Shown here piece after piece: positions 4,170 to 26,401 of a DNA stretch of 34,933 nucleotides. This stretch comes from Polyangiaceae bacterium. Its GTDB lineage: Bacteria > Myxococcota_A > Polyangia > Polyangiales > Polyangiaceae. Under the pieces are notes generated by a model. The model was given only the letters and a program-made list of their open reading frames with translations, searched no databases and was not told where the DNA came from. Numbering within the stretch: the first letter of the stretch is position 1; each line of letters starts with the position of its first letter. The position numbers and the translations under genes are program-made. The DNA lies in NCBI GenBank assembly GCA_025937835.1, contig JAICQO010000072.1:1-34933 (forward strand), written 5' to 3'.

Positions 4170-7100
4170 TCAAAGCCGCGAGCTCCGGACCACGCGCCAG
4201 CGCGTTTCGGCGTACTCGAGGCTCACGGCCATCTGGAGCAGGGAGCGGATCGAGGAGTTCGAGCGGGCGAGCTCCGCGAGCGAGTCGGGGCTGCCGAGCC
4301 GTTCGACGGGTATCTGTTCGTCGATGCAGACCTCGCGCAGCGCGACGCCGAGATCGCCGCACACGAACAACCCGGCGCGGCGGGTGGCGGAGCCGGCGAG
4401 GTGGATCGCGCCGTCGTACTCGAGCGCGCGCGGCTCGTCGCACAGCTCGCGCAGCTGGCGCTGCAAGCGCGCCGGGATGCTCTCCCAGAGGATCTCGGCC
4501 AGGCTCGGGATGCCTCCGGAGTTCGAGCCGCCCTGGGGCGGGCCGAACGCGAAGCGCAGACCGGCGAGCACGGCGCGCGCCTGCGCCTCCGACGAGCCGA
4601 ACAGCAGCACGAACTGCGGTAGCGTGCCGAGCAGCATCGCGCCGAGGTGAAAGGCGAGCTCCGGCGTCTCGCTGCGCACGTCCCCCGAGACCACGATCGC
4701 CGGCGGTGAGAGCAGGGCCAGGCTCACGGTGATCGAGCCCGCGCTGCGGCGCTGGAAGAGCGGCGTGCGCGAAAGGCCGAGCGCGCGCGACGCCGCGGCG
4801 TACGCCTTGGCGAGCGGCGTCGGCGAGCCCTGTGGCACACGCTCGAGGCCGGTCACGCCGTAGGTCGAGGCGTCGCGACGGAACACGTGCTCGGCGCCCT
4901 CCCAGACCAGCGCGAAGGCGTCGAGCGCCCGCGAACCGAGGTCCCGCAGGATCAGCGTGCGCACCGTGTCGGGGTTGTCTTCGATGTCCGAGAGCGGGGG
5001 CGGGCGCACGCGCTCCGCGGCGCCCTCGAGCACCGACAGGGTGTGCGTGATGGCCTCGGCGTGTACGGCGTTTCCCTCGCGCAAGGTCGCCTGATAGAGG
5101 CGCTCGAGCGCGAAGCGGTCCCCGGGGTGTAGCAGCGCGAAGCGCCGGCACACGAGCAAGAAATCGCGCGCGCGATCCGGGTTTCGCTCGAGGCGCTCGA
5201 GTAGCTCTCGGCCCGCGCCATAGTCGCCCGCGAGCAGGCCCTCGTAGAGCGCGGCTTCGTGGGAGTCGCGGAGCAGCGCCGGAGGCTCGGTCGAGGTGCG
5301 GCGCTCGATCGCCGGCACCAGGCGCTCGGCGGACGGGCGCACCGAGTAGCGGCCAGCGGGGAGCGAGCCGGCGGCTTCGACTGGGATGCTGAAGTGCTCG
5401 GGCTCGGGTTGGAAGCTGGTGCGCGGCAGCGGATCGAGCGCGGGCGGGTTCACGGACGGCACGTAGTCCACGACGATGCGCTCGCCCGCGATGCTCGGAT
5501 CGGTCGGGCGCTGCGAGTAGCGGCCGCGCAGCGGATCGAAGCTTTGGGCGCGGTGCAAGCCCGAGGAGCGCGCACGCTCGGCGAGAACGTCGACGCTCAG
5601 CTGGCGGGCCTTCTCGCGCACGACCGGGTCCTTGGCGAGCAGCTCGAGGTAGCGCGAGGCGCGCTCGAAATCGCCGAGCGCGCGCGCCAGCTTGGCCGCG
5701 CGAAACGCGACCTCGGCGGGGTTGACGAGGCTCGTCAGATCGCCGGCCAGCGCTTGGTCGTAGGCGTCGAGGGCGGGCGCGGAGCCGCCCTGATCGGAGA
5801 GCCGCTCGGCCAGCCCGAGCGCGAGCAACGGGCGGCGGCCGAGCGCCGCCTCGGCGCGTTCGAGCTCGGCCCGCGCCGCCTCCGGGCCCGCGGAGTGCTC
5901 GAGCGCCTCCGCCAGCAGGTAGGCGCGGAGCTCGAGCTGCTCCGGGGGCAGCTTCTCGCCCAGGCGGCGCAGCACGGCGACCGTGGTCTCGGCCTCGCCC
6001 GGCAAGATCCGCCCGTTGCGCCGGTATTCGAGCGACAGAGACAGGAGCTGCGCCGTGGCAGATTGCGGATCGAGGCGGGTCGCGGACTGCGCGCGGCGCA
6101 GCGCCGCCTCGTCGGCCCCGCCCGCGAGCGACGCGCGCGCGGACTCGATCCAGAGCGATACGCGCCGCGGCGGCGGGAGCGAGGACAGCCCGGCGACGTG
6201 CTCGAGCGCGGTCGCGAGCGCGAGCGGGTCGTCGCGGCGGCGTTCGATCTCGACCGCGAGCTCGAGGATGGCCTCGTTGTGCGCCCAGGTCTCGATGCTG
6301 GTGAGCGCTGAGCGGGCGCTCTCCGCGTCACCCCCCTGGAGGAAGGCCTCGCACGAGCGGCGCACGAGATCCGCGGTCTCCTCGGGATCGCGGGCGCTGC
6401 GGCTGGCTCGCAGCCAGAGCGGGGCCGCTGCGAGCGGCGCGCCGAGCCGCTGCTGCAAGTCGGCGAGCATGCGCAGCGCGCTCAGGCTGTCACCGGTCGC
6501 GCCGAGCAGCTCCTCGAGCTCGCTGCGGGCGTCCTCGGCGCGGCCCAGGCGTTGCTCGAGCACGGTGGCCCGCCGCAAGCGGATGGCGCGGACATCCTCG
6601 GGCGACCGGGCGAGCGCGGCGCGCCGTGCGAGCAGCTCGGCGAGCCGCTCGTAGTCGCCGCGGCGCTCGGCCTCGCGCTCCACGCCGGCGATCGCGTTGG
6701 CGTCGCTCGGATCGAGCGCGAGCACCTCTTCCCAGCGCATCAACGCCGCGGAGCGGTCGCCCGCTTCCTGGAAGAGCTCCGCCAGCTCGCGCAGCAGGCC
6801 GAGCTCTTCCGGCGTGCCGCGCGAGAGCTCGATCAGCGCCGCGAGCGCGCCCGCGAGCGGCTCGAGCTGGTTCGAGGCGCGCGAGATGGCCGCGAGGTTC
6901 TCGAACAGCTCGCGCGAGCGCGGCGCATTCGGGATTTCGCGCTCGATCACGCGCACGGCGCGCACGAAGTCCCCGCGCTCGGCCAGAAGGTGCGCGCACT
7001 CGGCGACGAGCAGCGGGCGCTGGTCGTGGTCCGGGCCGAGCCGATCGAGCTCCTGCTCGATCGCGAGCAGGAGCCTGTCGTGGAGCCGGCCGCGGCGGAA

Positions 7101-10100
7101 CAGCGACACCAGCCGATCGCGGATCTCCCGGTCGAGCGCGGGCGACAGCCCGTCGACCTCGAGCGCCCGGTCCAGGTAGTCCACCGCCTCGAGCACCGTC
7201 TCGGCGCGCTCGGAGAGCTCGACCAGGGTCTTCGCGCGCTCCGCCGGCGGCACGGCGTCGAGCACGATCTCGATCAGCTCGGGGTCGTCGAGCTCGCGGG
7301 CTGCCCGCTCGGCGCGGGCCACGAGCTCGGCGTTCTCGGGATCGCGGCGCGCGGCAAAGGCTAGGAAGCGCGCGTGGAGCCCCTCGTCGTTACGGCCGAG
7401 CGCGAGCTCGGCGGCGAGCTCGAGCAGGGCCGCTCCGGCGCCGCTCGAGCGGTCGCCGAGGTCTTCCCGCCGGGCCTCGAGCCACGAGCCCGCCTCGGGC
7501 GCGAGCCTCGACGACAGGGGCAAGAGATGCGCGAACTCGGGGGAGCCCGGATCGCAGCGGCGCGCGTGCTCGAGCGCGGTGAGCCCCAGCTGGACGGCTC
7601 CGAAGCGGGTGGTGAGCAGCTCCGCGCACTGGATCGCGAGCCGCGCGCCCTCCGCTCCCTCGACGCGAGCGAGCAGCGCCTCGGTCGCGCGCTCGACGCG
7701 AAGCTGCAACACCTCGCGCTCGCCGGGGGCGCGCGCCAAGAGCTCGCCGAGCGCGCGGTTCAGGCCGGACAGCGTCGAGGATTCGGGGCGCACCGACAGC
7801 GCGCGGAGCAAGATGTCCACGCGCTGGAGCAGCCCCTGCTCGCTCGAGCCGGCCAGCAGCGCCGCCTTCTGCAGCCAGGCTGCGCGCAGCTCCGCGCTCG
7901 AAGTCCGATCGGCGGCGCGCTCGATCGCGCTCACGACCTCGGCCATCTCGCCCACGCGCTCGCCGATGCGCGCCATGGTCACGAACGCCACCCCCTCGGA
8001 AGGGACGAGCTCGAAAGCGCGCACGGCGTGGGCGAGCGCCAGTGACAGCGCCCTGCGGCGCTCCATCTGCCGCGCCGCACGATAGTGCGTGGCACGCTCG
8101 CCGTAGCGGCCCGACGTGGCGTCGGCGAGGCGCGCGTAGACGCGCTCCAGCGCCTCGAGCTGGTCGTCCCCCGCGGCGCGCTCGATCACGCCGAGCACGT
8201 CCGTGCGGGTCGGATCGAGCTCGAGCGAGCGGGCCGAGTGCTCGAAGGCTTGCTTCGGTCGGTCGAGCTCGAGGGCCAGCGTCGCGGACACCACCAGGAT
8301 CCGCGCGGCCTCGGCCGGATCGCTGCGGCGCCCGGCCAGATCTTCGAGGCGGTGCAGCGCGGCGTCGGCCCCGCCGAACGAGAGCACGTCGCTCGCGTAG
8401 CATTCCACGCCGTGCAGCGGATCGAGCGCGAGCGCGCGCTCCCAGGCCGCGAAGGCCGAGAGCGGATCGGAGGCGAGATCCCAGTACGCCGCGCCGAGCT
8501 CGCGGAAGGCCCGAGCGGTGCCGCGCTGGTCGGATTCGCTGAGCGAGGCCAGCGCCTCGGCCCGGGCCGCGTGCAACGCGATCCGACCGTCGGAGCTCTG
8601 TGCGGGCAAGGCCGTGTCGAGCTCTGCCAGCACGGTCGTGCCCCAGGCGCCCTCGTTCATGGCGCGCATCAGGCAGCGCGCGGCGCCGTCGGCGTCGATC
8701 GCCGCGCGGCGCCGGCGCGAGAGATCGAGCAACACCTCGGCGCGCGTGCTGCCGGTGGCGCCCGAGCCGAGCCAGCGCTCGAGCGCCGTGATGCCGAGGC
8801 CGGCCTCGCCGGTCATCTCTGCCACGGCCAGCACGGACAGCCGCAGATCGAGCGCGCGCGGGCCGATCACGTCGAGCGCGCGGCGAGCCAGGGCGCTCGC
8901 GCGCATCGGCTGCTGCGGAGCCAGCGCCATCAGCGCTCGCCCGACGGGCACGGCGAGCTCCGCGACCGGCATCGCTTGCGACAAGAGGAACGCGATCGCG
9001 TCGGCGAGCGACCCGCCGTCGCCGGCGCGGCGCGCGCGCTCGAGCCGCTCGGACGCGGCGCGCGCGTCGCCCGGCCGGAGCGCGACGCGGCGCTGGCTGA
9101 AGGCGAGCGCCAGGATCGGCTCACCCAGCCGCTCGTAAGCGTCGGACAGCGCCGCGCACAGCTCGGCGCGCGGCGCGATCACGGCCAGCGCGCGTTCCAT
9201 CGCGCGGGCTCCCCAGGCGTCGCGGCTCTCTGCTCCGACTTCGGCGCGCACCGCGAGCGCGCGCGCCGAGGTCGGATCGGCCGCCACCGCTTGCTCGGAT
9301 GCCTCACGCGCGGCCTCGAGCTCGCCCTGCGCGAGCAGTGACTCGGCCGCGATCGCGAGCAGCGCCGCGCGCGACACCGCGCCGAGCCCGTGCGCGAGCT
9401 TCGACAGCGCGCGCGCCCGGAGCAGCTCGTCTCCGCGCTCGGCGGCCAGGAACACCAGCCGGCTCAGCGCGGGCGCGTACGCCGCGCCGTCGTCGAGCAG
9501 CGGCCGGAGCTCGGCGACCGCCGCCTCGAGCGCGCCGGCCTTGCGCAGCATGTCCGCCTTCTGCAGCTTGTGCCGCGCGCGCTCGAGCGGCGAGGTCGAG
9601 AGCCGTGCGAGCCGCTCGTAAAACTCTGCGAGCTCCGCGTGCCGCCCCTTCTGCACCAGCAAGCGCTCGACGGCTTTCTGATGGCGGAAATCGCCGGGGA
9701 CGAGCTCGGTGAGCTCGCTGAGCGCCGCGAGCCGCGCGTCGGCGTCGTCGGGCGAGGCGCCGAGCAGCTCCACGATGCGCTCGAGCACGGGAGCGCGCTC
9801 CGAGCCCACCAGCTCCGCGAGCTCGGCGCGGAGCCCCGCGAGCCTCTGGTCGCGCTCGCGGACGCGCTCCGTGAGCGCTGCGAGCGACAGAGCGGCCTCC
9901 TCCTTCGGCAGCCGCTCGAGCACGTAAACGGCGAGCTTCGGATCGTCGATTCGCTCGGCGGCCAGCGTCGAGAGCTCGCGCAAGAGCTGCGCTCTGCCCG
10001 CGAAGCCCGGCTTGTCGAGCAGCACGCGCACCAGCGCTTCCACGAGCGGCAGCGGGTCGCGCGCCGCGGCCGCGTAGCGCACCAGCGCTTCGTGGGCCTC

Positions 10101-21430: not shown

Positions 21431-22162
21431 ATGCGAAGGCTCTGGGTTCTGTGTCTGTGCGTGGCGGCCGTGGCGTGCCGCCGCGAAGCGAAGAAGCCCG
21501 TGCGCACCGAGCCGTGGCTCGCGGCCGCCGCCTCGCTCTCGAAAGACGCGCCGCGCGCCCCTTCGAAGTACCGGGTGAAGCGCGGCACGGCCACGGTCGA
21601 GCTGCGCGTCGATCAGCGCCCGGTCCGGCTGGTGTTCGATCGCATCGACGGTGAAATCGACGTCGATTTCCGGAGCGTGGACGCGACCTCCGGCAGCCTG
21701 CGCGCCGACTTGCTGTCGCTGCGCGTGGAAGGCGCAAACGTCCCCGAAGGCCTCGTCGAGCGCGCGCTCTCGAGCCTAGAGCTCCGCTCGGATACGCCGG
21801 ATTCGGAGCCGGAGCGCTTCGCCGAGCTCACGATCGTCGCGCTCGACCGCGGCGCGCTCGGCGGCTCACGCCGCTCCACGCTGAAAGCGCAGGGCGACCT
21901 CACGTTGCACCGGTTTCGCACGCCGCACGTGTTCGAGATCGAGGTCGAGCTCGCGGCACCGGACGCGGCCGTGCCGGACACACTGCGGATCCGCACGCGC
22001 CGCCCGCTGGTCGTTTCGCTTCCCGCACACGGCCTCGGCCCTGCCCAGGCTGCGCGGGGCCCGGCACACTCACCTACATCGCCGCTCCCGCGGTTCAGCA
22101 AAGAGGCGCGGATTTCAGCCGAGATCGAGGCAGAACCCGAGGGCTCGACGACCGACCGCTGA
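21431..22162 (+). CDS. YceI-like lipoprotein
   Basis: A 243-residue protein from ATG 21431, with signal sequence MRRLWVLCLCVAAVAC and a lipobox-like AVAC (Cys16). In-frame GTG codons at 21410 and 21422 are alternatives. The mature part follows the order of a YceI lipocalin-like fold: YRVKRGTATVELRV, then GEIDVDFRSVDATSGSLRADLLSLRV, an ERFAELTIVALD strand, and near the end LTLHRFRTPHVFEIEVEL, equivalent to the YceI G-x-L-T-L-H-G-V-T strand. YceI proteins bind isoprenoid-like lipids in the periplasm. Here the similarity is by pattern only. A disordered tail (about 205-243) ends the protein. It is last of the envelope set and lies 89 bases before the RiPP precursor gene. Confidence 0.6.
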   Translation: MRRLWVLCLCVAAVACRREAKKPVRTEPWLAAAASLSKDAPRAPSKYRVKRGTATVELRVDQRPVRLVFDRIDGEIDVDFRSVDATSGSLRADLLSLRVEGANVPEGLVERALSSLELRSDTPDSEPERFAELTIVALDRGALGGSRRSTLKAQGDLTLHRFRTPHVFEIEVELAAPDAAVPDTLRIRTRRPLVVSLPAHGLGPAQAARGPAHSPTSPLPRFSKEARISAEIEAEPEGSTTDR

Positions 22163-22251: not shown

Positions 22252-22626
22252 ATGAAAAGCCAACTGACGTTCCAGCAGCTCGCGACGACCCTCTTGGCTC
22301 TCGGCGGCGGGCTTGCCGCTTGTTCGAGCGCAACCCCGCCCCCGGACGCACCCGTGCAGGCCACCGAGGTCACCGCGGCCGCGCCCGAGGCTCCGCCCGC
22401 CCCGGAAGCGGCTCCGGCGAGCGACCCCGCCGCAGCTCCGGCAGCCGACCCCGCAGCAGCCGCGGCCCCCGCTCCGGCTACCGTCCCCGAGCCCGCCGCA
22501 GCTCCCACCGTTCCCGGACCGCCCCCGGTCGCGGCCCCCACGCCCGAACCCGCGAAGCCCCCCGCCAGCAAGCAAAAGAAGGCTGCAGGCGCGAAGGGCG
22601 GCTGCGGCGCGGGCACCTGCGGCTGA
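22252..22626 (+). CDS. Bufferin/HvfA-like RiPP precursor, lipid-anchored
   Basis: A 124-residue protein with a signal sequence ending in a perfect lipobox LAAC (Cys24), a long Ala/Pro/Glu spacer (26-105) and a basic hinge (KQKKAAGAK). The C-terminus is GGCGAGTCG. Apart from the lipid cysteine the only cysteines are Cys118 and Cys123, five residues apart, the same period as the EGKCG repeats of HvfA-type metallophore precursors. The next two genes are the MNIO (DUF692) enzyme and its partner, so these cysteines are probably converted to a metal-binding heterocycle such as an oxazolone/thioamide. This is inferred from the family. A lipid anchor plus a spacer would hold the modified tip away from the membrane. 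It differs from known precursors in lacking the Glu/Lys of EGKCG and in having just two units. The 89 bases upstream show no clear sigma-70 promoter. Confidence 0.7.
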   Translation: MKSQLTFQQLATTLLALGGGLAACSSATPPPDAPVQATEVTAAAPEAPPAPEAAPASDPAAAPAADPAAAAAPAPATVPEPAAAPTVPGPPPVAAPTPEPAKPPASKQKKAAGAKGGCGAGTCG

Positions 22627-22639
22627 CGGAGCCGGCTCG

Positions 22640-23500
22640 GTGACGGAGCGCGCGCGCCCCCACGGCGTCGGGCTTGGCCTGCGCTGGGAGTTCCTCGAAG
22701 AGGTCGTGGACGGGCCCAAGCTCGACGTCGACTTCTTCGAGGTCTCTCCCGAAAACTACATGCGCAGGGGCGGCTATTACCCCGCACAGCTCGAGCGCGT
22801 CCGCGAGCGGTATCCGCTTTCGTGCCACGGGCTCACGCTGTCGATCGGCGCGAGCGCCGAGCCCGATGCGTCGTATCTGACCGAGCTCCGCCGTGAGCTC
22901 GCGCGCCTCGGCTCGCCGTGGCACTCCGATCACCTGTGTTTGTCGAGCTCGGGCTCGCGCCAGTTTCACGACCTCTTGCCGTTGAAATTCGCGCGCGAAA
23001 ACCTGGAGCGCGTCGCCGACCGCGCGCGCCGCGTACAAGACGCGCTCGGCGTGCCCCTGGCGCTCGAAAACATCAGCTACTACGGGCACCCCGGCCGGCG
23101 CGAGCTCGAGGAGGCCGAGTTCGTGCGCGGCGTGGTCGAACGCGCCGAGATTGGCCTGGTGCTCGACGTCAACAACGCCTACGTCAACGCCCAGAACCAC
23201 GGCGGGGACCCGCGCGACTTCATCGCCAGCCTGCCGCTCGAGCGCGTGGTCGAAATCCACGTCGCCGGCCATTACCGGAGCCCGAAGGGGCTCGTGATCG
23301 ACACCCACGGCACGCCCGTGATCGATCCCGTCTACGAGCTACTCGAGCTCACGCTGGTCAAGACCGGGCCCGTTCCGGTGTTGCTCGAGCGCGACAACGA
23401 CGTGCCGCCGTTGCCGGAGCTCCTCTCGGAGGTGGCGCGGCTGAAGCGCGTCTACCAGAGGGCCCGCGAGACCCGGACTGGCTATGCAAAGAGCGCTTGA
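22640..23500 (+). CDS. bufB: DUF692/MNIO multinuclear iron oxidase (BufB/HvfB type)
   Basis: A 286-residue TIM-barrel enzyme of the MbnB/TglH/BufB family, which uses an oxygen-activating di- or tri-iron centre to modify cysteines of a precursor peptide. The hallmark segments are in order: GVGLGLRWEF at the N-terminus, DFFEVSPENYM, CHGLTLSIG, HSDHLCLSS, LENISYYGHP, LVLDVNNAYVNAQNHG, EIHVAGH and IDTHGTPV. These include the conserved His/Glu/Asp/Asn metal ligands, all apparently intact. The length is usual for the family. The start is GTG 22640, 13 bases after the precursor gene, with GGAG upstream. The gene's 3' end overlaps bufC by 17 bases. The N-terminal GLGLRWEF and SPENYM pattern is that of the bufferin/HvfB branch rather than methanobactin MbnB. 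Confidence 0.93.
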   Translation: MTERARPHGVGLGLRWEFLEEVVDGPKLDVDFFEVSPENYMRRGGYYPAQLERVRERYPLSCHGLTLSIGASAEPDASYLTELRRELARLGSPWHSDHLCLSSSGSRQFHDLLPLKFARENLERVADRARRVQDALGVPLALENISYYGHPGRRELEEAEFVRGVVERAEIGLVLDVNNAYVNAQNHGGDPRDFIASLPLERVVEIHVAGHYRSPKGLVIDTHGTPVIDPVYELLELTLVKTGPVPVLLERDNDVPPLPELLSEVARLKRVYQRARETRTGYAKSA

Positions 23501-24317
23501 AGCTGCGCTCAGCGAGCTCGTGTTCGGACCTGAGCTCGACCCGGCCGATCCGGCCGCCACCCACGCCTTCTTCGAGCGCCACGCGCTCGCTCACGACGAC
23601 CGCGCCGCCCTCGAGCAGGGCGAGCTCGAGCGCCTGCTCGTTTACCGCGAGCTCGTGCGCGGCACGCTGAAGGCCGCCCTGGAGGCAGCGATCCCGCGTT
23701 CGATGGCGCGGCTCGGCCCGCGCTTCGACGTGTATTTCGAGCGCTTCGTGGCGGAGCGCGGATCTACGTCGCACTACCTGCGCGACGTCACCAGCGAGTT
23801 CCTCGATTTTTGTGCGACCGACTGGCGCTCGGATCCCGAGGTCCCGCCGTACTTGCTCGACCTTGCGCGCCACGAAGCGCTGCACATCCGCGTGGCGGCG
23901 GCCGCGCCGGAATCGCGGGCCGCGCGCCCGAGCCTCGAGCTCGACGAGGTGCCGTGCTTCATCGAGGCCCTATCGCTGTCACGCTCGGCCTACGCGGTGC
24001 ACCGCCTGCCGGAGGCGCTGGAAGATCGCAGCGCGCCCGAGCGCAAAGACACGACGCTGCTCGCGTACCGGAGCCCCGAGCACGAGGTGCGCTACCTGGA
24101 GCTCACGCCGCTCGCCGCGGACCTGCTCGAGCGCTGGCTCGCGGGCGCAGCCCTCGGGGCCGGCCTGACCGGGGCGGCCCGCGCGGCAGGCGGAGACGTC
24201 ACCCCCGCGCTGCTCGAAGCCACCGCCCGGCTGCTCGCCGATCTCTCCGAGCGCGGCGTGTTGCTCGGCACCCGCCACGAACCGGCCCCCGAAACGTCCG
24301 CCGCGAGACAACCATGA
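23484..24317 (+). CDS. bufC: BufC/HvfC-type partner protein (DUF2063-like)
   Basis: A 277-residue cytoplasmic protein directly after, and overlapping, the MNIO gene. The N-terminal half has the DUF2063-like helical pattern, with LLVYRELVRGTLKAALEAAIPRS then YFERFVAERGSTSHYLRDV and EFLDF. The C-terminal half carries the winged-helix-like part that recognises the precursor leader in characterised MNIO systems (TPLAADLLERWLAG, ALLEATARLLADLSERGVLLG). In bufferin, HvfA and methanobactin clusters this partner brings the precursor to the iron enzyme. Its stop overlaps the ATG of the kinase gene (ATGA). Because leader peptides are recognised by this class of protein, it should bind the N-terminal or spacer part of the precursor at 22252-22626. 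That is inference. Confidence 0.83.
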   Translation: MQRALEAALSELVFGPELDPADPAATHAFFERHALAHDDRAALEQGELERLLVYRELVRGTLKAALEAAIPRSMARLGPRFDVYFERFVAERGSTSHYLRDVTSEFLDFCATDWRSDPEVPPYLLDLARHEALHIRVAAAAPESRAARPSLELDEVPCFIEALSLSRSAYAVHRLPEALEDRSAPERKDTTLLAYRSPEHEVRYLELTPLAADLLERWLAGAALGAGLTGAARAAGGDVTPALLEATARLLADLSERGVLLGTRHEPAPETSAARQP

Positions 24318-26401
24318 ACGACAACGACCCGCTATCCATCGTCGGCCAGACGATCGCCGAGAAGTACCGCGTGGAGCGCCTGGTCGGCAGCGGCGGTTTC
24401 GCCGTGGTCTACCGCGCGCTGCACACGATCTGGAACAAGCCCGTCGCGATCAAGTTCTTCAACGGCCTGTCTTCGGCGCCGGTAGACCAGCGCGAGCAGC
24501 TCCATCAAGCCTTCATTCAGGAGGGCGCGCTGCTCACGGATCTGTCGAGCGAGACGGCCGCGATCGTTCAGGCTCGCGACGTCGGGACGTTCACGTCCCC
24601 GGACGGCAGGTGGATGCCGTACATGGTCCTCGAATGGCTCGACGGGCTCACGCTCGAAGACGTGCTCGTCAGAGAGACGCGCGAGCGCGCCCCCGGCTGG
24701 CCCATCCACGAGGTGGTGCGGCTGCTCGCGCAAGCGGCGACGGCGCTCGATGTCGCGCACAGAAAGGGCATCGCTCACCGCGACATCAAGCCCGCCAACC
24801 TGTTCATCCTGGGTGATCCGCACTCGGAGTCGGCCACGCTCAAGGTGCTGGATTTCGGCGTTGCCAAGCTGATGGCCGACAACACGCAGCTCAACGCGGC
24901 GCTGGCCATGACCGGCATGAGCGTGACCAGCTTCACGCCGCAATACGGCGCGCCCGAGCAGTTCAGCCGCGGCTACGGCGCGACCGGGCCCTGGACGGAC
25001 GTGTTCGCGCTGGCGCTCGTCGCTTCCGAGCTCCTCAGCGGCAAGCCACCGCTCGAGGGCGACGACGTCGTCCAGCTCGCGTTCTCGTCGGCCCACCCCG
25101 AACGCCGCCCGACCCCGCGCACGCTCGGCGCGACGGTCACGGACGCGGTCGAGGCCGTGTTCTCGAGAGCGTTCGCGATCCGCCCGAGCGACCGCTACCA
25201 GCACGTCGCCGAGTTCTGGGAGGCGCTCGAAGAGGCGAGCGGCGAGCGCCGCGCCCGCTTCACGACCCAGCGGGTGTCGCGTGCGACGGGCGCCACCGAC
25301 GCGACACAGGTCGCGCCCCCGAACTTCGGCATGCCCGCGGCCTCGCCCGCGCCGGACCGGAGCACGACGGTCGACGCCGTCACCAAGGCCTCCGCGCAGG
25401 GCAAGGGCCGAGGCACGCTCGCCGTCGTGGGCGCGGGCGCGGCCGTGGCAGCGCTCGCGCTCGGCGGTTTCTTCGTGTTCGGACGCGGCGGCGCGACACC
25501 TGCGGCGACGGAGCCGAAGCCGAAGCCGAAGCCGAGCGTCGCGGCTGCGGCCGTCGCCACGCCGTCCGCCCTCGAATCGGCGAAACCCACGGGGCCGGCC
25601 TGCCCGGAGCGGATGAACCTGATCGCCGCCGGGCAGTACTTCCAGGGCTCGGACGCAAAGGACGCGATGGCGGCCGAAAAGCCCGCTCACAACGTGTCGC
25701 TCGACAGCTATTGCATCGACACTTACGAGGTCACGGCCGGCGAGTACAAAGCTTGTTCGGACGTCGGCAAATGCAAGCGCGCGGCGAACGACGTGGACTG
25801 GCCGAACATCACCCCGGCCGAGCGCAAGATCTACGCGCCGCTCTGCACCGCCAACGATCCAGAGCGCAAGGACCACCCGATCAATTGCGTGACCTGGGAG
25901 ATGGCCTCCCTCTATTGCAAGGCGCAGAGCAAGCGCCTGCCGACCGAAGCGGAGTGGGAGTACGCGACGCGCGGCCCCGACGGTCGGGTCTACCCGTGGG
26001 GTGACGAGCCGCCGACCGAGAAGCACCTGAACGCTTGCGGCTCCGAGTGCGTGGCGTGGGGGCGCGCCAACAAGACCCCGCTCGAGCCGCTTTACGAGGC
26101 CGACGATGGCTACCCGACCACCGCCCCGGTCGGCCGTTTCGCAGCAGGCCGCTCACGGTTCGGCCCCCACGACGTCGCCGGGAACGTCTGGGAGTGGGTC
26201 GGCGATTGGATGGCCGACTACACGAAAGAGGACAAGAAGAATCCGACCGGTCCGGAAACCGGCACGCGGCGCGTGATCCGGGGCGGCGCCTGGAACGGCA
26301 GCTATGCGAGCTGGCTTCGCCCGTCCTTTCGCTACGCCCAGGATCCGAACGCCACGAGCCACGGCATCGGTTTCCGCTGCGCCAGCAATCCCAATCCGTA
26401 A
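24314..26401 (+). CDS. Membrane Ser/Thr protein kinase fused to a sulfatase-modifying-factor (FGE-like) domain
   Basis: A 695-residue protein. The cytoplasmic Hanks-type kinase (about 18-310) has the Gly loop GSGGFAVVY (25-33), Lys47 in VAIK, HRDIKPAN with Asp157 and DFG with Asp180, so it should be active. A Pro/Ala-rich juxtamembrane region leads to one transmembrane helix (about 367-390). A periplasmic FGE-sulfatase fold covers about 430-695 (PTEAEWEYATRG, DVAGNVWEWVGDW, RVIRGGAW, GIGFRCA). The segment RGGAWNGSYASWLRPSFRY lacks the two catalytic cysteines (C-x4-C) of true formylglycine-generating enzymes, so this part is probably a binding or sensor domain. It starts inside bufC (4-base overlap). 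It may sense something in the periplasm linked to the metallophore; this is speculation from gene order. Confidence 0.88.
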   Translation: MNDNDPLSIVGQTIAEKYRVERLVGSGGFAVVYRALHTIWNKPVAIKFFNGLSSAPVDQREQLHQAFIQEGALLTDLSSETAAIVQARDVGTFTSPDGRWMPYMVLEWLDGLTLEDVLVRETRERAPGWPIHEVVRLLAQAATALDVAHRKGIAHRDIKPANLFILGDPHSESATLKVLDFGVAKLMADNTQLNAALAMTGMSVTSFTPQYGAPEQFSRGYGATGPWTDVFALALVASELLSGKPPLEGDDVVQLAFSSAHPERRPTPRTLGATVTDAVEAVFSRAFAIRPSDRYQHVAEFWEALEEASGERRARFTTQRVSRATGATDATQVAPPNFGMPAASPAPDRSTTVDAVTKASAQGKGRGTLAVVGAGAAVAALALGGFFVFGRGGATPAATEPKPKPKPSVAAAAVATPSALESAKPTGPACPERMNLIAAGQYFQGSDAKDAMAAEKPAHNVSLDSYCIDTYEVTAGEYKACSDVGKCKRAANDVDWPNITPAERKIYAPLCTANDPERKDHPINCVTWEMASLYCKAQSKRLPTEAEWEYATRGPDGRVYPWGDEPPTEKHLNACGSECVAWGRANKTPLEPLYEADDGYPTTAPVGRFAAGRSRFGPHDVAGNVWEWVGDWMADYTKEDKKNPTGPETGTRRVIRGGAWNGSYASWLRPSFRYAQDPNATSHGIGFRCASNPNP

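Follow-up and report, generated by a model that had tools for sequence, protein, structure and literature searches.

Organization of the locus

The window, i.e. the whole stretch of 34,933 nucleotides from a Polyangiaceae bacterium that was analysed, carries on its forward strand a short precursor gene followed by genes for an MNIO (DUF692/MbnB_TglH_ChrH) maturase and its partner protein. The precursor, P0001 (22252..22626, + strand), is a predicted lipoprotein of 124 aa with a Cys-pair tip, recognised from its sequence and conserved in 27 loci; GGAG lies 6 bases 5' of its ATG. The N-terminus, MKSQLTFQQLATTLLALGGGLAAC24, comprises a predicted type-II (lipoprotein) signal peptide (residues 1-23; 22252..22320), whose core is kept over the 27 homologues, and the lipobox Cys24 codon (LAAC; 22321..22323). 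The translation thus opens MKSQLTFQQLATTLLALGGGLAAC-SS and continues into an Ala/Pro/Lys-rich spacer (22324..22602) with an APVQATEV box near its start (consensus PVxAxEVPA). It ends with KGGCGAGTCG, or residue by residue K115-G-G-C118-G-A-G-T-C123-G124-stop; in this CGAGTCG-stop tip (22603..22626), Cys118 and Cys123 are the presumed MNIO targets. In the whole 6.9-Mb genome, the P0001 tip is the single match to CGxGTCG-stop, and the reversed control pattern has none. The P0001 stop and the GTG of the MNIO gene (22640) are separated by 13 bases. These coordinates, together with lipobox Cys24, the Ala/Pro spacer, the tip, the gap, the enzyme and its partner, agree to the base with the original prediction, apart from the spacer length, which had been put at 80 residues and amounts to 93 between Cys24 and Cys118.

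P0001 matched none of the NCBIfam precursor models, including KCGExKCG_twice (HvfA/oxazolin EGKCG). It had no Pfam match and hence no DUF2282 domain, as would be expected of a BufA1, and with two tip Cys and no match to NF050166 it lacks the 6 or 12 Cys of BufA2. The proposed comparison with MNIO-associated precursor families thus placed P0001 in no curated family, and succeeded for two of its relatives (L104 and L143, see below). Neither a promoter nor a terminator consensus was found around the P0001 gene, and the precursor locus matched no Rfam family. Based on its signal sequence, P0001 is very probably lipid-anchored. The lipobox Cys is followed by Ser-Ser, the corresponding residues being mostly Gly-Gly in relatives. 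In E. coli, lipoproteins without Asp at position +2 are sent to the outer membrane; since the +2 residue of P0001 is not Asp, this destination would be expected by the E. coli rule. Compared with the definition of DAG-RiPPs (RiPP-lipoprotein hybrids), the lipobox is present and conserved, and acylation and modification are predicted.

The MNIO (22640..23500, + strand) matched PF05114 with 316.9 bits (gathering score 25; E 1.2e-94), which places it in the family. Its core residues (E34, H63, H98, E143, D176, N179, H207, D221, H223, E250, D252) are invariant in 129 homologues, and D252 is the equivalent of the FonB catalytic base Asp249. NCBIfam models gave 293 bits for HvfB (cut-off 360), 279 for BufB (cut-off 310) and 50 bits for ChrH. 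The partner ORF (23484..24317, + strand), which overlaps the MNIO 3' end by 17 bases, scored above the Pfam cut-offs for DUF2063 (35.5 bits; cut-off 27.2) and NGO1945_C (44.6 bits; cut-off 27) and is therefore an HvfC-like protein of PME type 1, as had been proposed for this enzyme pair. For the partner, no PDB relative was found by sequence, so it was assigned through Pfam and NCBIfam; in the latter it scored under the HvfC equivalog cut-off. As neither protein reached its equivalog cut-offs (HvfB and BufB for the MNIO, HvfC for the partner), the locus is a member of the group, though not of the canonical HvfB, BufB or HvfC type. That it represents an MNIO RiPP locus is nearly certain.

Overall, the genome contains three MNIO and two DUF2063 genes. 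The second MNIO (L081; G000:C147:63698-64477) is accompanied by a lipobox-bearing BufA2-like precursor with 9 Cys including the lipobox Cys (NF050166 39 bits, cut-off 60). For the third, more distant one (L083; G000:C137:50365-51162), the ORF in front ends HACGVSSCGSSSCGSSCGGGGGCGGCGS and perhaps encodes a TIGR04222-type protein. Several MNIO matches among the genomes had an in-frame TGA, raising the question of selenocysteine; all four that were checked were ordinary stops at the C-terminal end of the alignment.

Two further genes flank the cassette. Upstream, on the + strand, lies a gene for a YceI-fold lipoprotein (21431..22162, start possibly GTG 21410), present in a single copy in the genome. 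Downstream follows a Ser/Thr kinase-FGE-sulfatase fusion protein (24314..26401, + strand), whose start overlaps the partner stop (ATGA). Only the five nearest loci (L001-L005) have the latter gene in the same position, and its link to the RiPP cassette is uncertain.

Conservation of predicted lipid-anchored precursors in Myxococcota

In order to place the locus among its relatives, bacterial genomes were scanned with the window MNIO, as were 379 Myxococcota genomes, of which 199 gave a match at E ≤ 1e-40; the resulting survey set comprises 113 non-redundant loci, including seven from gammaproteobacteria. Precursor classes were assigned by regular expressions, with a few labels corrected by hand, and lipoboxes were called with a permissive pattern instead of SignalP. 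A Cys-bearing small ORF was found directly 5' of the MNIO in 98 myxobacterial loci, and 87 of these 98 showed the lipobox pattern. Predicted lipidation is thus the rule for MNIO precursors in Myxococcota, apparently a new observation. While this supports the lipid anchor originally proposed for P0001, it runs against the view that such an anchor is abnormal for the class; moreover, lipoprotein signals are predicted for 16% of Buf2 bufferins (PMC12452194), and NedA has been made in lipidated form (PMC12636315).

In 27 of the myxobacterial loci, the ORF directly 5' of the orthologous MNIO combines a lipobox, an Ala/Pro/Lys-rich spacer (85-125 aa) and a CGxGTC tip. Their spacers consist mostly of A, P, G, K and T, and the PVxAxEVPA box follows the lipobox. 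As this set was picked by its tip motif (CGxGTC(G/S/A)), invariance of the tip within it is no evidence by itself; independent of that choice are the lipobox, the signal core L-[ST]-[FL]..TLAALG and the EV box. The motif AxE[VTIQ] was found no more than 24 aa from the lipobox in 35/98 precursors, compared to 7/475 later sequence windows.

The clade of the window MNIO comprises 48 rows, 44 of them with enough upstream sequence, and a recognisable small Cys precursor was present in 42/44. No precursor was recognised near the MNIO in the two exceptions, L173 and L102, or in L018. In L173 (G112:C22:8732-12317), two MNIO genes lie within 2 kb of each other on opposite strands, the window-like one being the gene without a recognised precursor. 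These results show that the precursor upstream of the window MNIO is not there by chance and that the locus is real and conserved. Loci in which another precursor takes the place of this ORF, which would have spoken against the original prediction, did not appear: the tip varies, and the lipid-anchored Cys precursor is kept.

A graded series of tips and matching enzyme sites

In the maximum-likelihood MNIO phylogeny, the window enzyme groups with L001 (Sorangium) and L003 in a 13-row clade, marked with a star, of which 12 rows have CGxGTC tips. This clade is nested in the 48-row clade (100/98), which in turn belongs to an 80-row clade (99/89) composed of myxobacterial loci. The EGKCG-type MNIOs of gammaproteobacteria form a separate clade (100/100). 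Across the myxobacterial loci, the tips range from GEGKCGEGKCGEGKCGG (L143), EASCGEGSCG twice (L104) and EGSCGGEKA repeats (L099) to AACGEGSCG (L116), SCGAGTCS (L014) and GGCGAGTCG (window). Judged from their sequences, the predicted lipid-anchored precursors thus grade from EGKCG repeats via EASCGEGSCG to the CGAGTC tip. The lipoprotein precursors L104 and L143 exceed the cut-off of KCGExKCG_twice, the HvfA-repeat model. Because such lipoprotein intermediates exist and two of them pass the HvfA model, the original reading of the CxxxxC tip as two degenerate EGKCG-type, HvfA-like units is well supported.

The enzyme changes together with the tip. In FonB, Arg15 and Arg16 surround the Glu of the unit, Phe250 lies near its Lys and Gly, and Asp249 acts as catalytic base, whereas Cys-Lys (Buf2-type) enzymes have Asp at site 250 (PMC13097082). 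The equivalent residues in the window MNIO are Arg15, Trp16, Asn253 and Asp252, respectively. The equivalents of Arg16 and Phe250 are R/F in 13/19 EGKCG loci. Overall, the sites are mostly R-R/F with EGKCG tips, mostly R-V/D with Buf2-type tips and mostly R-W plus N or Q with CGxGTC tips, and the counts for Trp16 versus the CGxGTC tip were 27/3/2/86 (statistics without correction for shared descent). These results demonstrate that the MNIO specificity sites change along with the tip. Since the FonB variants R16A and F250D kept activity (PMC13097082), sites 16 and 250 tune rather than decide.

FonBC requires two units; it tolerates Thr or Ala before the Cys, the residue behind the Cys has to be Gly or Ala, and units with Arg at position 1 are rejected (PMC13097082). 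The window tip, KGGCG-AGTCG, consists of two units with G or T before and G after each Cys and is therefore close to the smallest substrate expected to work. Lys stands at position 1 of the first tip unit in 11/27 CGxGTC precursors; loss of Arg16 may fit this Lys, at the position where FonBC rejected Arg.

Association with a YceI-fold lipoprotein

The protein encoded upstream of P0001 showed a marginal match to Pfam YceI (E 0.0024), and its homologues matched in 10/11 cases (best 1.8e-7). Its AlphaFold2 model (mean pLDDT 79) retrieved YceI-family structures as the top 21 PDB matches, with a best E of 5e-9. Among loci with at least 1.3 kb of upstream sequence available, a YceI-like gene stood beside 28/43 of the clade loci and 5/58 of the others. 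The association was stronger with precursor form: 31/35 long-spacer, end-tip precursors had such a neighbour, compared to 2/60 others (Fisher p 2e-18, uncorrected for descent). In L010 and in a separate clade (L109, L123, L169), the YceI-like gene is found downstream instead, which argues for functional linkage over frozen gene order. YceI was absent from the MNIO literature found on search, and its association with the long-spacer, single-tip precursor form is apparently new. Lactamase_B_2 and DoxX were not among the best 25 of 76 neighbour families (78 neighbours).

Comparison with known MNIO systems

The cassette resembles the captophorins or oxazolin-type RiPPs (HvfABC, FonABC, NgoABC, NedABC) in its order precursor-MNIO-PME1, its Sec-type precursor, the Cys followed by Gly in five-residue units, and the retained catalytic base and metal core. 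In contrast to these systems, it has only two units at the extreme C-terminus, without the Glu or Lys of EGKCG, a spacer of about 93 Ala/Pro-rich residues, Trp16/Asn253 in place of Arg16/Phe250, a YceI-fold neighbour and no NCBIfam HvfA match. By the definition of captophorins (5-thiooxazole installed by MNIO-PME1, Cu binding), the gene content fits and the chemistry is predicted. A parallel for the lipid anchor is the NedA oxazolin, which was produced experimentally in lipidated form and carries three -4 Da modifications (PMC12636315); lipidation is demonstrated for NedA and predicted for P0001. With the bufferins BufA1/BufA2, the window shares an MNIO, a PME1 and an exported Cys precursor; unlike them, P0001 has neither DUF2282 nor the 6-Cys pattern, and its MNIO has Asn at site 253, where Buf2-type enzymes usually have Asp.

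Two published groups come close to the precursor, compared here by description rather than by their sequences. Mining of MNIO neighbours for lipoprotein signals yielded 'Cluster X', an uncharacterised group in which a CxxxxC motif is highly conserved (PMC12636315); it shares with P0001 the lipoprotein signal, the motif and its status as presumed MNIO substrate. A 'CxxxxC' family of 76 proteins, with a Lactamase_B_2 gene in 54% of its clusters (PMC12452194), likewise combines a signal peptide and a CxxxxC motif with MNIO and DUF2063 genes, whereas a Lactamase_B_2 context was not seen here among the best 25 of 76 neighbour families. Given Cluster X, the CxxxxC family and the lipoprotein signals of the Buf2 bufferins, the lipid-anchored CxxxxC form had already been anticipated. 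The suggestion that this precursor form may not be described therefore holds only in part: lipidated CxxxxC precursors had been predicted as Cluster X, while lipidation as the predicted rule of the phylum and the YceI-linked long-spacer, single-tip form are new. Apparently, the stripped-down tip, the matching enzyme changes and the steady YceI-fold neighbour have not been described before, within a cassette of known type.

Proposed function and alternative explanations

Taken together, the cassette is probably a captophorin/HvfA-type MNIO RiPP of a Polyangiaceae-like myxobacterium. This explanation is built on gene content, conservation, enzyme-site co-variation and the YceI association, and it takes its chemistry, order of steps, lipidation and copper from relatives. 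The precursor would be synthesised with a lipoprotein signal peptide and, in the cytoplasm, held by the DUF2063/NGO1945_C partner (PME type 1), probably via its conserved N-terminal part. Before export, both Cys118 and Cys123 would be oxidised by the MNIO, the most likely products being 5-thiooxazoles (-4 Da per cysteine). Sec export would then be followed by acylation of Cys24 and cleavage by signal peptidase II, so that a flexible Ala/Pro/Lys tether of about 93 residues would carry a minimal two-unit soft-metal tip, most likely for copper, away from the membrane. The neighbouring YceI-fold lipoprotein may be active in the same compartment as the tethered tip. By analogy with relatives, modification of both cysteines appears likely, with somewhat less confidence in 5-thiooxazole as the product, and copper is the leading guess for the bound metal, favoured by a small measure. 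Lys115, which is unlike EGKCG, the lack of a curated family for P0001, the MNIO and partner scores under the equivalog cut-offs and the lack of an adjoining copper gene count against this explanation.

Regarding the metal, the sister loci L006 and L041 both carry a gene for a CopA-type Cu ATPase that lies next to the precursor gene, diverges from it and is located about 0.8-1.1 kb 5' of the MNIO. Within the window, no copper gene adjoins the locus, and all three CopA-type ATPases of the genome are located on contigs other than that of the window. L099 and L103 show a cation-efflux (CDF)-like ORF, judged by sequence alone, just 5' of their EGSCG-repeat lipoprotein precursor. In another clade, L152 has a multicopper-oxidase-like ORF (6967-8406; HCH...H...GM motif) 5' of an unusual precursor.

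It is conceivable, at perhaps one chance among several, that the lipid-anchored product is modified but serves a role other than copper buffering, such as binding of a different metal, a part in thiol redox, or the handling, jointly with the YceI-fold lipoprotein, of a lipophilic ligand. The tight association of that lipoprotein with the long-spacer loci would fit such a role, as would the lack of DoxX and Lactamase_B_2, known from published clusters, among the best 25 of 76 neighbour families, the window without an adjoining copper gene and the cation-efflux-like ORFs. However, characterised 5-thiooxazole products generally bind copper (PMC13097082), and the Cu ATPase neighbours in L006 and L041 point the same way.

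Somewhat less probable, and on the whole unlikely, is a different chemistry at the tip, with only one Cys modified or the Cys joined as in ChrH/DybH macrocycles. All tip units are devoid of the Lys found in Lys-Cys captophorins, and both enzyme specificity sites are altered; MNIO reactions are diverse, and the ChrH subfamily macrocyclises a two-Cys C-terminal motif of a lipoprotein precursor (PMC12636315). Against this, the window MNIO is far nearer to HvfB/BufB than to ChrH by model score, and a PME-type-1 partner is present, every characterised PME1-dependent case of which installs 5-thiooxazole (PMC13097082).

Ala/Pro spacers of low complexity are common in myxobacterial lipoproteins. A reading of P0001 as a plain structural lipoprotein whose Cys tip binds metal without being modified, the MNIO acting on some other substrate, is nevertheless very improbable: the Cys-tip precursor directly 5' of the MNIO recurs in nearly all testable clade loci, tip type tracks the residues at the MNIO substrate-contact sites, and there is no alternative candidate substrate between the conserved genes.

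Within the captophorin/HvfA-type explanation, a more specific picture may tentatively be drawn, in which a myxobacterial branch has reshaped the repeat-type copper peptide so that a single two-thiooxazole tip on a long lipid tether acts like a 'fishing rod', forms a fixed envelope pair with the co-inherited YceI-fold lipoprotein and is made by a maturase retuned (Trp16/Asn253) for tips free of Lys and Glu.

Work on MNIO copper peptides has so far centred on soluble periplasmic or repeat peptides of Pseudomonadota. In Myxococcota, most MNIO precursors appear to be lipid-anchored, and closely related enzymes differ in the repeat number, spacer length and tip chemistry of their precursors. This variation represents a natural series for addressing the minimum number of units, the selectivity for cysteines and the location of the metal-loaded peptide, and the YceI-fold partner provides a concrete functional lead.
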